This document shows, piece after piece, positions 1,211 to 29,976 of a stretch of 32,277 nucleotides of DNA. How positions within the stretch are numbered: the stretch's first letter is position 1; every line of letters begins with the position of its first letter. A program made the position numbers and the translations under genes. The stretch is from Alphaproteobacteria bacterium (GTDB lineage Bacteria > Pseudomonadota > Alphaproteobacteria > UBA9219 > RGZA01). The notes under the pieces were generated by a model, which worked only from the letters and a program-made list of their open reading frames with translations, ran no database searches and was not told the DNA's origin. The stretch lies in NCBI GenBank assembly GCA_021732145.1, contig JAKFVN010000050.1:1-32277 (forward strand). Direction: 5' to 3'.

Positions 1211-1270
1211 ATACGCAGGCGCGCTTGCGCCCACATTTTTAAATTGGGCGCAGAGCGTTCGCGTTTTAAA

Positions 1271-24331: not shown

Positions 24332-24503
24332 GTCAAAAATCCAAAAATAAGGTCAGAATCAATCGATATAGTCTGTTTTGAATGGCGCCCCGCGTCAAAC
24401 ACTTATCCGGATTTTCTAACAATAAAAACGCCGCGCAAAGCATTGAAAGCATTGACTAAAATTCAAGCATTTTAAAATAAGCCATCCCTTTTTTACCTTT
24501 TTG

Positions 24504-24512
24504 TGCTATACA
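24504..24512 (+). promoter_or_regulatory. Extended -10 promoter of ssrA
   Basis: TGCTATACA (TG at 24504-24505, TATACA at 24507-24512) is an extended -10 element directly before the mature-like region of ssrA. No clear -35 lies 17 bases upstream. A TTGACT at 24452-24457 is too far for this -10 and pairs only with weak AAATAA. Confidence 0.5.
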
Positions 24513-24516
24513 GAAG

Positions 24517-24895
24517 GCGCCAGTTCGCTGGCTATGGTGATAAACGCTGTACAGAATAAGCAGGACGGACCCGGGGGCGGTACCCGGCGCCTCCACCATA
24601 TGAATTCTACAAACGTACTATTTTTCAGTCACGGTTGCGGGGAGCGCCTCTGGCGCGTACCGCAGAGTAGTCGAAAAGAATTCATATATTGGGGGCGAAC
24701 TAGGATCGACGTATGTAGTAAAAGTACAGTTTTTGCTCGGCATGGTTCCGCCGTTATCGGGCTAACAACTACGGATGCCAACGACAACGTTGCTCCTGAA
24801 GCTCACGTAGCTCTAGCTGCTTAACCCTTTGGGGTTCGGTAGTTAAGCGAAAAGCTTAGCGGTCCGGGGGCTACCGGGCAACAGAAAGCCCCCAC
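24517..24895 (+). ncRNA. ssrA: tmRNA, circularly permuted two-piece ssrA
   Basis: tmRNA rescues stalled ribosomes and tags the unfinished protein. The gene is in the permuted order known from alphaproteobacteria. The acceptor piece comes first and ends in CCGGCGCCTCCACCA at 24598. An intervening segment follows (24599-24690), then the coding piece from GGGGGCGAACTAGGATCGAC at 24691. The acceptor stem forms between CGCCTCC and GGGGGCG. The tag starts with GCC at 24777 and stops with TAA at 24822-24824: ANDNVAPEAHVALAA, a normal alphaproteobacterial tag ending in ALAA. TATGAATTCT (24599-24608) pairs with AGAATTCATA (24677-24686), extending the acceptor stem in the precursor, to be cut out on maturation. 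The 3' part ends near a GGGGGCT/AGCCCCC helix (24866-24893). Exact ends are estimates. Confidence 0.96.
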
Positions 24896-24896
24896 T

Positions 24897-25084
24897 TTAT
24901 TTTTACAGCGACTACTCCGCGCTACGCGCGACCGTGACTGCTGTTATTTTTACAGCGACTACTCCGCGCTACGCGCGACCGTGACTGCTGTTATTTTTAC
25001 AGCGACTACTCCGCGCTACGCGCGACCGTGACTGCTGTTATTTTTGCTGTGACTGCTCTGTGCTACGCACAACCGCGACTACAG
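24897..25084 (+). repeat. Four tandem 47-bp hairpin repeats after ssrA
   Basis: Units are 24897-24943, 24944-24990, 24991-25037 and 25038-25084. The first three are identical; the fourth differs at 11 positions. Each has TTATTTTT (positions 1-8) and then a 40-nt hairpin (9 to 48, the last base shared with the next unit). The stem joins 9-14 to 43-48, 17-19 to 38-40 and 22-25 to 31-34, with the loop CTACG and internal loops between. The changes in unit 4 fall in pairs 9/48, 11/46, 13/44, 18/39, 22/34 and 24/32, each keeping a Watson-Crick pair. Hairpin plus T-run resembles serial weak terminators of ssrA. The array abuts the stop codon of the converging gene. Confidence 0.9.
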
Positions 25085-25723
25085 CTATTCGTCACTTCCC
25101 GGCGCACGATCACGCTTTCTTGGTTTTGCCTTACGCTTTGCCTTTGCAGCTGGGCGCGCTGGCGCGGCGGCTGGTTGTGCAGGTTGCGGCAACTCATCAA
25201 ATCGCAAATACCGCACATTGAATTCATTATCGATTGCGCCGGGCAATCTGCATGTTATCGAACCAAATGATTGATGCTGTATTTCGGCAATGTGCGGGTT
25301 GGTATCCCATTCCTTCAGGAAATAAAAATATCCCTCGCCCGTCGCTTTGTAATTCAGCCAGTTGTTGGTGAGCGCAACGCCTTTGGTGCCATGACCAGCC
25401 GCATTGCTGTAAAAGGTGAAATGGCCCTTATCCAAAATATGGCGCACCAGCGCCTTGCAATCTTCTTCGACATATTTGCTGATTTGCTTTTCGCGCCATT
25501 TCGCAAAATCTTTTTCTTCAATCGGGTGCGGAAACGGGTTCGCGCCATAACACGTTAGCGGCTCCCATTTAGGATCATCAGGGTTATCATCATAATCAAG
25601 CTTGAACTTCTGATAGATTTCCCAGCTTGGCCAAATAATGATGCCGGCGGCTTCTTCCCAAATGCGTTCAGACTCAACCGCATAATTATCGGCAAACTTA
25701 TCGGTCTGTGGTCTTTTCGCCAT
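25085..25723 (-). CDS. Hypothetical protein, 212 aa, with a basic Ala/Pro/Lys tail
   Basis: I do not recognise this protein. The start at 25723 has AAGGA upstream (the AAGGACATAGT before the ATG). Residues 1 to about 175 look like a folded soluble domain rich in aromatic residues (IIIWPSWEIYQKF, CYGANPFPHPIEEKDFAKWREKQ, GEGYFYFLKEWDTNPHIAEIQH). Residues from about 178 are a low-complexity Pro/Ala segment and then a basic stretch (AKAKRKAKPRKRDR) ending acidic (GSDE). The basic tail suggests nucleic-acid or ribosome binding, an inference only. There is no signal peptide. It sits between ssrA and sspB, convergent with ssrA and divergent from sspB, and its stop codon touches the hairpin array. 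Confidence 0.7.
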   Translation of the reverse strand: MAKRPQTDKFADNYAVESERIWEEAAGIIIWPSWEIYQKFKLDYDDNPDDPKWEPLTCYGANPFPHPIEEKDFAKWREKQISKYVEEDCKALVRHILDKGHFTFYSNAAGHGTKGVALTNNWLNYKATGEGYFYFLKEWDTNPHIAEIQHQSFGSITCRLPGAIDNEFNVRYLRFDELPQPAQPAAAPARPAAKAKRKAKPRKRDRAPGSDE

Positions 25724-28470: not shown

Positions 28471-29941
28471 TACATTCGATAGATATGCGTCCACGATTTT
28501 CTGGGGCTTTGCAGCCCTGCACGTTATCTGCTGGACGCTCCTTCCTTCCATCATCCAGCTCAATGCGCCGCTTGACACGGTTGAAGGATTCGCATGGGGC
28601 AATGAAATGCAATGGGGCTATTACAAGCATCCGCCGTTGCAGGCATGGCTGCTGCAATTCGTAACGCATATCGTCGGCAATTCCGGTGTGGGCCATTTTA
28701 GCCTTTCGGCCATTACAACGGGCATCAGCTTTTGGGCCATTTATCGCACCGGGCGCTTATTCACAACGCGCATGAATGCGTTGATTGCAACGCTGCTCTG
28801 TGAAGGCATTGTTTATTTTAATTTCCTGTCGCCGGAATTTAATCCCAATGTATTGCAGTTGATGACATGGTCTTTATCGGCTTATGCGTTTTCAAATGCC
28901 ATATTGCGGGGCAAATTGAAATACTGGCTGTTGCTGGGCGTGTTTTTTGCGCTCGGCATTTACGCGAAATATTCCATCGGGCTGCTTGGCCTTGGCTTTT
29001 TCATTTTCATAATAACGCACCAGGCGACGCGCAATCTTTTTGCTTCTTGCAAGCCATATCTTGCCGGCGCCCTATTCGCAGCACTTAGCGCGCCACACGC
29101 CCTGTGGCTGATTGATCATGACTTTCTTCCTTTCACCTATGCCTTAAGCCGCAGCGAGGAAGCCAAGGATATGCTGGAGCACCTGTATTTCCCGTTCCGG
29201 TTCACGCTGACGCAGATACTGGATATGCTGCCGATGATTGCGCTGGTTTTCATGCTGCTGAATGTCCGGCTGCGCCCGCCAAAACAGACCCATTTACGCC
29301 GCGATTTATTGGCTTACCTGGCATTTGCGCCGCTGGTGCTAAGCGCCATTATATCGTTCTGCACGGGGCATAAGGTGCTCGATATGTGGGGCATGCCGTA
29401 TTTAAGCTTTATTCCATTATGGCTGATTGTGAATGCGCCGCTTGATTTATCCATCAAGAATTTAAAGCCGTTTGCAATTGCATGGGGGTTTGTCTTTATC
29501 ATACCGCTGGGCGTATTTTATTTCAGCATGGCGCTGGCACCGTCTTATGGCTTTAAGCCTTTGCGCGGGCATTTCCCTGGCACTGAACTGTCGCGCATCA
29601 TGCATGAAAAATGGCAGAGCGCGACCGGCAAGCCGCTTACTTATATCGTCGGCGACGCATGGCTGGGCGGAAACATCGCATTGTATGCACCCCGTACTTA
29701 TACACCCGATATTACAAAGCGCCCGCATGTGTTTATTGATGGCAATGCGCAAATCAGCCCGTGGATTGATGTGAATGACGTGACCCAAAAAGGCGCGCTG
29801 GTTGTCTGGCGCGACAATGCGCCTAAGCCGATTTTCCCGGGCAAGATTTTGCCCAACATTGAGGAAGTGAGCGTGCCGTGGCAAATTGCTACAAAAACAC
29901 CGCCACCGCATATCTATTGGACCATTATCCCACCAAAATGA
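28433..29941 (+). CDS. Glycosyltransferase family 39 membrane protein (ArnT/PMT-like)
   Basis: GT39 enzymes take a sugar from a polyprenyl-phosphate carrier and place it on a lipid or protein at the outer face of the inner membrane. The 502-residue protein has about ten membrane segments. The first periplasmic loop begins with LDTVEGFAWGNEMQWGYYKHPPL (about 45-67, written here as a family landmark), equivalent to the acidic catalytic loop of ArnT and PMT relatives. The C-terminal 100 residues are soluble. It overlaps the GT2 gene, which likely makes its lipid-linked donor. The acceptor could be lipid A, LPS or a protein. Its ATG at 28433 lies within the previous gene and has no clear ribosome binding site. 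Confidence 0.82.
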   Translation: MLPTPSHPAALNNTFDRYASTIFWGFAALHVICWTLLPSIIQLNAPLDTVEGFAWGNEMQWGYYKHPPLQAWLLQFVTHIVGNSGVGHFSLSAITTGISFWAIYRTGRLFTTRMNALIATLLCEGIVYFNFLSPEFNPNVLQLMTWSLSAYAFSNAILRGKLKYWLLLGVFFALGIYAKYSIGLLGLGFFIFIITHQATRNLFASCKPYLAGALFAALSAPHALWLIDHDFLPFTYALSRSEEAKDMLEHLYFPFRFTLTQILDMLPMIALVFMLLNVRLRPPKQTHLRRDLLAYLAFAPLVLSAIISFCTGHKVLDMWGMPYLSFIPLWLIVNAPLDLSIKNLKPFAIAWGFVFIIPLGVFYFSMALAPSYGFKPLRGHFPGTELSRIMHEKWQSATGKPLTYIVGDAWLGGNIALYAPRTYTPDITKRPHVFIDGNAQISPWIDVNDVTQKGALVVWRDNAPKPIFPGKILPNIEEVSVPWQIATKTPPPHIYWTIIPPK

Positions 29942-29976
29942 CATGACTAAAATGACATAACTAAAATGACATGGCC
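29935..29976 (+). repeat. Three tandem 14-bp repeats at the GT39 stop codon
   Basis: AAAATGACATGACT (29935-29948), AAAATGACATAACT (29949-29962) and AAAATGACATGGCC (29963-29976) are imperfect tandem copies. The first unit contains the TGA stop codon (29939-29941) of the GT39 gene. They look like a small slippage or duplication tract and have no obvious role. Confidence 0.75.

Follow-up and report, generated by a model that had tools for sequence, protein, structure and literature searches.

The best-known palindromes that lie in protein-coding sequence are those of the intracellular lineage Rickettsia, and the way in which they move is still open. Rickettsia palindromic elements (RPE; Ogata et al. 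2000, 2002) lie in frame in protein genes and are about 100-150 bp long, with a mobiliser given as unknown (PMC2229807, PMC10969869). RPE insertions have also been reported inside the genes for tmRNA and M1 RNA (PMC2229807; Ogata 2002 cited there). Smaller still are the REPs tagged with CGTC or GTAG, i.e., palindromes of 20-40 bp which are sometimes intragenic and include RPE-4, RPE-6 and the dRS3 of Neisseria (PMC3733652), with a CGTC-1 family reported in Micavibrio aeruginosavorus (PMC3733652). The ERIC, Correia/NEMIS and YPAL MITEs are about 100-200 bp in length, and target-site duplications are found in several of these families (PMC2229807).

Here we describe a family of hairpins that came to light as a tandem array directly after ssrA in an alphaproteobacterial contig. 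The window, i.e., the whole 32,277-nt stretch of DNA that was analysed, is contig C27 of a 2.09 Mb genome (G000), of which G001 and G002 are congeners. We read the array as one local group of copies of a mobile palindromic element that is dispersed and non-autonomous, and put the probability of this reading at roughly 0.86.

The ssrA locus and its hairpin array

The ssrA gene was identified with Rfam (alpha_tmRNA RF01849, 247.7 bits, E 4.9e-71; also RF04321, 149.2 bits) and its tag peptide, ANDNVAPEAHVALAA, was read off the sequence; ARAGORN detected no tmRNA in the window, the permuted form apparently having been missed. The gene is flanked by thyX on one side, and on the other by an unnamed ORF and then sspB. 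This ORF (25085-25723, minus strand, 212 aa) lies between ssrA and sspB and has no Pfam match, and in several relatives sspB directly follows ssrA. The features of the window that concern us are as follows.

24480..24896, plus strand: ssrA, permuted two-piece tmRNA (acceptor piece, intervening segment, coding piece, tag ANDNVAPEAHVALAA); Rfam
24866..24904, plus strand: putative ssrA terminator, stem GGGGGCT/AGCCCCC then ACTTTATTTTT; sequence, stem conserved in relatives lacking the array
24905..24944, plus strand: element copy 1, type A hairpin; R2 45.6 bits, R1 56.3 bits
24952..24991, plus strand: element copy 2, same sequence as copy 1; R1/R2 model matches, unit comparison
24999..25038, plus strand: element copy 3, same sequence as copy 1; R1/R2 model matches, unit comparison
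25046..25085, plus strand: element copy 4, another type-A member; R1/R2 model matches, unit comparison
24622..24677, minus strand: further type-A copy, in the intervening segment of the permuted tmRNA gene; core pattern, R2 model
1212..1265, minus strand: diverged element copy; R2 35.8 bits, E 2.6e-6

The array begins at the base directly after the end of ssrA (24896) and consists of four units at 24897-24943, 24944-24990, 24991-25037 and 25038-25084, which confirms the coordinates and the 47-bp period given in the initial annotation. Units 1-3 are identical to one another; compared with them, unit 4 has 11 changed positions, and base 25085 is a twelfth. As had been claimed from the first reading, every one of these changes is compensatory: the 12 differences resolve into the same six exchanged pairs (9/48, 11/46, 13/44, 18/39, 22/34 and 24/32), and the CTACG loop and the spacer TTATTTTT are indeed the same in all units. 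For 12 random changes on the 40 hairpin positions, the probability that all make complete pairs is ~8e-8. The last base of copy 4 (25085) also belongs to the TAG stop of the minus-strand ORF. The stem of the hairpin is interrupted by two conserved internal loops, GACT/GACT and TC/ACC, and its minimum free energies are -14.1 and -13.3 kcal/mol (z -1.8 and -2.1). Folding energy is by itself unconvincing here, and it is the covariation that convinces. When the array was compared with Rfam at a relaxed threshold, nothing was found beyond a 10.9-bit chance match.

The better reading is that unit 4 represents one member of a family and units 1-3 another, the latter present in triplicate; stepwise mutation of a single copy is then unnecessary. 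The identity of units 1-3 points to a tandem triplication at ssrA. In G002 there are three units 3' of ssrA, the middle one having the same 26-nt core as units 1-3 of the window and sharing with them a rare CTCCG/CGACC variant; because of this common core and variant, the cluster at ssrA appears to be older than the split between the two species. Given the G002 cluster, an assembly artefact seems unlikely, with the exact number of identical units being taken from one assembly.

The end of ssrA carries a stem, GGGGGCT/AGCCCCC, and a T-tract whose role we take to be that of a terminator, judging by their sequence, and a GGGGGC/GCCCCC stem with a T-rich tail is common at the end of ssrA in relatives without the array. 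A terminator scan did not flag 24866..24904, the loop of which exceeds the length that the scan allows. The first hairpin of the array starts right after this T-tract, and other copies likewise follow terminator-like hairpins (e.g., at L205 17620 and L247 13286).

Elsewhere in the window, the diverged copy at 1212..1265 lies between a plus-strand ORF ending at 1151 and a minus-strand ORF ending at 1271, and a short tandem repeat (2.8 copies of AAAATGACATGACT) occupies 29935-29973. At the position matching the type-A copy at 24622-24677, G002 has a type-B copy. Other long inverted repeats occur 3' of ssrA or in the tmRNA intervening segment of G001 (L165), G003 (L162), G021 (L144), G028 (L138) and G032 (L161), e.g., CAGAAGACAGAGGACGGACGACAG in G021 and the CGTC-like GTCATGCCCGCGAAGGCGGGCATCC in G001; this spot therefore collects palindromes of various kinds.

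Architecture, covariation and distribution of the family

The element is an imperfect hairpin of 40-60 nt, or up to about 100 nt where another copy is nested in its loop (measured sizes are 40-58 nt, and 88-103 nt when nested). From the outside inwards it comprises a variable outer stem, a subtype-specific internal loop (GACT/GACT in type A, CATTC/TCGG in type B, GAT/CCT in type C), one or two pairs that covary, a TC/ACC loop that is nearly fixed, and a variable inner stem-loop opening with TG...CA. Stem-checked copies have in common the core CTCTG-stem-loop-stem-CAACCG, whereas their outer parts are exchangeable between A (GACT R ... Y GACT), B (CATTC G ... C TCGG) and C (GAT GC ... GC CCT). 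Of 99 distinct copies, 79 keep the CTC/ACCG motif unchanged; the variants GTC/ACCC and TTC/ACCA reveal that its outer C-G covaries as a pair too, which is why the nearly fixed internal loop is given as TC/ACC. Readings as attC/integron sites or K-turns were considered and dropped, as the constant motifs do not fit.

Selection for the 40-nt hairpin, which the initial annotation had proposed on the strength of the array, is supported far beyond it. In an alignment of 44 type-A copies from many genomes, pre-filtered for pairing at the middle pair, 10 of 11 pairs vary on both sides, 96% of the cells are paired against 21-62% in slid controls, and the covariation score was reached by none of 500 shuffles. 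The same covariation was recovered separately in G000 and G002 (48 and 51 distinct copies) from model-based alignments, which have no pairing pre-filter but are fitted to the structure and so lean toward it, with slid controls staying low. Covariation is thus strong across the family as a whole. The middle pair was GC in 60 cases, CG in 26, AT in eight and TA in one.

Two further explanations of this pattern need to be weighed. The hairpin could be a structured RNA, i.e., a protein-binding or regulatory hairpin spread across transcripts, such as the mRNA stability hairpins formed by E. coli REPs, and two conserved internal loops within covarying stems do resemble a recognition site. However, selection on one RNA strand should favour G-U, and among about 594 inner pair cells G-T and A-C are equally rare (6 vs 7; an earlier count of 10 vs 3 from own copies alone came partly from the weakly aligned outermost pair). 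As G-T is no commoner than A-C, selection at the level of DNA is favoured over selection on a one-strand RNA. Intragenic copies are moreover found on either strand relative to the gene, and occupancy differs among congeners, so that we regard an RNA role as unlikely. Alternatively, the pattern could come from mutation only, with templated quasi-palindrome correction through hairpin intermediates yielding compensatory changes without selection. Arms that pair strictly by Watson-Crick rules, G-T and A-C intermediates being almost absent, would suit such a process, but it would also remove the GACT/GACT and TC/ACC loops, which are both conserved and imperfect, and we consider it quite improbable as the whole explanation.

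Copies are scattered through the genome. The array used as a query gave weaker matches elsewhere in G000, and a relaxed pattern gave 13 matches there, 10 and five in the two congeners and a few in other genera of the order. R2, a model over all subtypes, matched 52 places in 1.16 Mb of G002, and 54 in 799 kb of own-genome sequence at E<=0.01. The initial annotation had proposed searching this genome and its relatives with the unit and its covariance model, and a search of this kind with R2 at E<=1e-4 revealed a dispersed family with at least 62 places in G000, 41 in G002 and 12 in G001, these being lower bounds since part of the first-look candidates was scored. At this threshold 19 of 33 genomes of the same order had at least one copy, whereas the 26 genomes from other orders had none. 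Across a wider sample of the class (about 190 genomes, under a strict filter in which weak matches are lost) R2 matched G000 only. The strict core was found in 32 stretches among 84,980 named species genomes, all of them MAGs labelled as Alphaproteobacteria, Rhodospirillaceae/Rhodospirillales, Micavibrio aeruginosavorus or unclassified proteobacterium, and it gave no match in viral contigs. Judging by these labels, the order is probably the one to which genome-based taxonomy assigns Micavibrio, a genus that NCBI places elsewhere. Tandem arrays recur in the own genome, with seven units of 44 bp on C3, three of 54 bp on C9 and three of 48 bp on C8. The first of these (L137 7991-8295; G000:C3:47991-48295) is made of type-B units with a T-rich spacer and ends within the C-terminus of a 568-aa minus-strand ORF.

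The element lies 3' of a T-rich stretch some 8 nt long: when 45 own copies were aligned at the hairpin foot, positions -7 to -1 were 53-71% T and no T bias was seen downstream. This bears on the functions that had first been suggested for the array at ssrA, namely serial terminators, protection or processing of the 3' end of tmRNA, or a protein-binding RNA. The location directly after ssrA and the TTATTTTT that follows each of hairpins 1-3 are what such a function would lead one to expect. The T-tract of the family as a whole is, however, on the 5' side and not the 3' side of the hairpin, the terminator scan found no site, and the stems have no G-T excess. Furthermore, the same hairpins recur at dozens of unrelated sites, some within protein genes and some between other genes, while G002 is the only one of 28 other genomes with a detected ssrA to have the array after it; the remaining 27 lack it, and a terminator-like stem with a T-rich tail is common among them, as it is present in ssrA of the window itself. 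These roles in tmRNA are therefore not supported, and a terminator, barrier or 3'-end protector is in our judgement very improbable. With elements following T-rich tracts, both the position at ssrA and the TTATTTTT spacers are explicable without any tmRNA function.

Insertion sites and mobility

At least 13 of the 45 sampled non-tandem copies in the own genome are in frame, stop-free and inside the conserved domains of 11 genes: pheT and an alpha/beta hydrolase gene (two copies each), an epimerase gene, xseA, hisH, hisF, mnmA, rdgB/Ham1, purD and the genes for dihydroorotate dehydrogenase and ferrochelatase. The inserts in four of these genes (hisF, L135 3818-4666; pheT, L133 3379-5841; purD, L132 18-863; mnmA, L191 1803-3083) amount to about 10-20 residues, and relative to solved homologues the element adds 20 residues to HisF and 15 to PurD. 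Both orientations relative to the gene are found. Other copies are located near the ends or upstream of genes (hemF, rsmI, an S4/pseudouridine synthase gene and guaB) or are intergenic. Two copies of opposite orientation lie in or at an ORF for a phage-like protease (L095 3715-4877) and one of these is clearly in frame, thus prophage genes also carry the element.

At the start of guaB (L127 17879-17918), the gene in G000 seems to have gained its start codon and ribosome-binding site from an A-rich tail beside the inserted hairpin, and comparison of G000 with G002 suggests that the T-rich tract arrived together with the hairpin. As to a possible derivation of one outer arm from the target, only guaB, and in part PurD, gave a clear picture, and we draw no conclusion from it.

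Thirty-two copies of the own genome had flanks that could be placed in G002, where about 13 sites were empty, 18 were occupied and one held a CGTC-like repeat instead. The hisF loop holds a C-type in G000 and a B-type in G001 and G004, and is empty in G002, G006, G010 and G016. There are two sites in pheT. At the first, all three congeners carry a copy and genomes outside the genus do not; at the second (127-140) G000 has a copy, G002 and the outgroups have none, and the G001 contig lacks this part of the gene. In rdgB, a simple A-type in G000 corresponds to an A-type with a C-type in its loop in G002, and in G000 B-types are nested in the loops of A- or C-types. At one and the same spot, xseA has a type-B copy in G000 (L131 18800-18842) and a type-B copy of opposite orientation in G002. 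Empty sites in a congener, together with nesting, mean that the family has been mobile, a conclusion we infer from occupancy. Different subtypes at one locus could represent conversion instead of fresh insertion. With the nearest genome 15-20% diverged, no target-site duplication was evident in alignments of filled and empty sites, and exact insertion ends were clear in one or two cases only. Among the roles listed in the initial annotation, a mobile palindromic repeat thus turned out to be the right one, the copies being dispersed and nested and some sites empty.

As to the enzyme, mobilisation by a RAYT (a Y1 HUH transposase of the IS200/IS605 group) that has since been lost or has diverged would fit a mismatched single-strand hairpin inserted 3' of a short tract with no visible target duplication, and Y1_Tnp genes are present in eight other genomes of the order. 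This origin as a REP is nevertheless doubtful: PF01797 was not matched in either of the two genomes with most of the copies (the own one and G002), and the terminal GTAG or CGTC tag is missing. Only one Y1_Tnp locus (L103/L080) has an element nearby, and that element is inside the ispDF ORF and does not flank the transposase. Reverse transcriptase (PF00078) is likewise absent from the own genome and from G002.

Returning to the dispersed mobile palindrome as the preferred explanation, the array could have arisen as follows. An element would have entered the T-tract of the ssrA terminator, its probable landing site, before the own species and G002 separated; a second family member would then have landed beside it, and tandem duplication would have turned one unit of T-tract plus hairpin into three. 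Recognition by the mobilising machinery, which would most likely act on single-stranded or cruciform DNA, may be the reason why hairpin and loops have been preserved; in that case the compensatory pattern would reflect selection at the level of copies for a mobilisable structure and not a function in tmRNA. Copying of one arm from the other perhaps contributes to this pattern.

Relation to described elements and significance

On our analysis, RPE are the closest known kind of element. In both cases alphaproteobacterial palindromes are dispersed between genes and in frame inside conserved genes, and here too a copy lies in an RNA gene (the tmRNA intervening segment, 24622-24677). In contrast with the length of RPE (about 100-150 bp), the present hairpins measure 40-58 nt and reach 88-103 nt only if nested, and they differ further in their pair of conserved internal loops, in outer modules that can be exchanged, and in the occurrence of nested and tandem copies. 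The family was seen only in one order other than that of Rickettsia, and it is compared with RPE here on the basis of published descriptions. With REPs (PMC3733652) it shares small size and an occasional intragenic position; however, a terminal GTAG or CGTC tetranucleotide was not seen in the aligned copies or their flanks, and, unlike GTAG REPs, the copy-richest genomes (G000 and G002) have no RAYT and the relatives no REPtron-like arrangement. The CGTC-like repeats (GTCATGCCCGCGAAGGCGGGCATCC) found in G001 and G002 are separate from the hairpin family. ERIC, Correia/NEMIS and YPAL are comparable as small non-autonomous palindromes, some of them translated within host proteins, yet the elements here are shorter and no target-site duplication was seen. 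A literature search, with subscription papers mostly outside it, found no description of this hairpin family, which within that literature is previously undescribed. The first reading had known of no such element next to ssrA; this was not quite right, as an RPE inside tmRNA has been reported (PMC2229807).

Perfect covariation next to a famous RNA gene need not imply a role for that gene, and the locus serves as a warning in this respect. Its wider interest is that it adds, from an alphaproteobacterial order other than that of Rickettsia, what looks like an independent family, with many copies in several genomes, filled and empty sites, nesting, and a recognised structure that strong covariation defines; these properties make the question of mobilisation testable. 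The conserved loops could serve as bait for the mobilising enzyme, and essential enzymes that carry a copy, such as HisF and PurD, allow direct tests of tolerance. We tentatively suggest, while holding it to be somewhat less than an even prospect, that these are modular, ultra-short mobile hairpins which spread without a transposase or reverse transcriptase of any recognisable kind. An enzyme of the host, or some other enzyme, would read their two conserved internal loops in single-stranded or cruciform DNA, and the A, B and C modules would be specificity classes that replace each other at one site. If this is true, many essential enzymes in one bacterial order would have been lengthened by 10-20 residues by loop-recognised hairpins.
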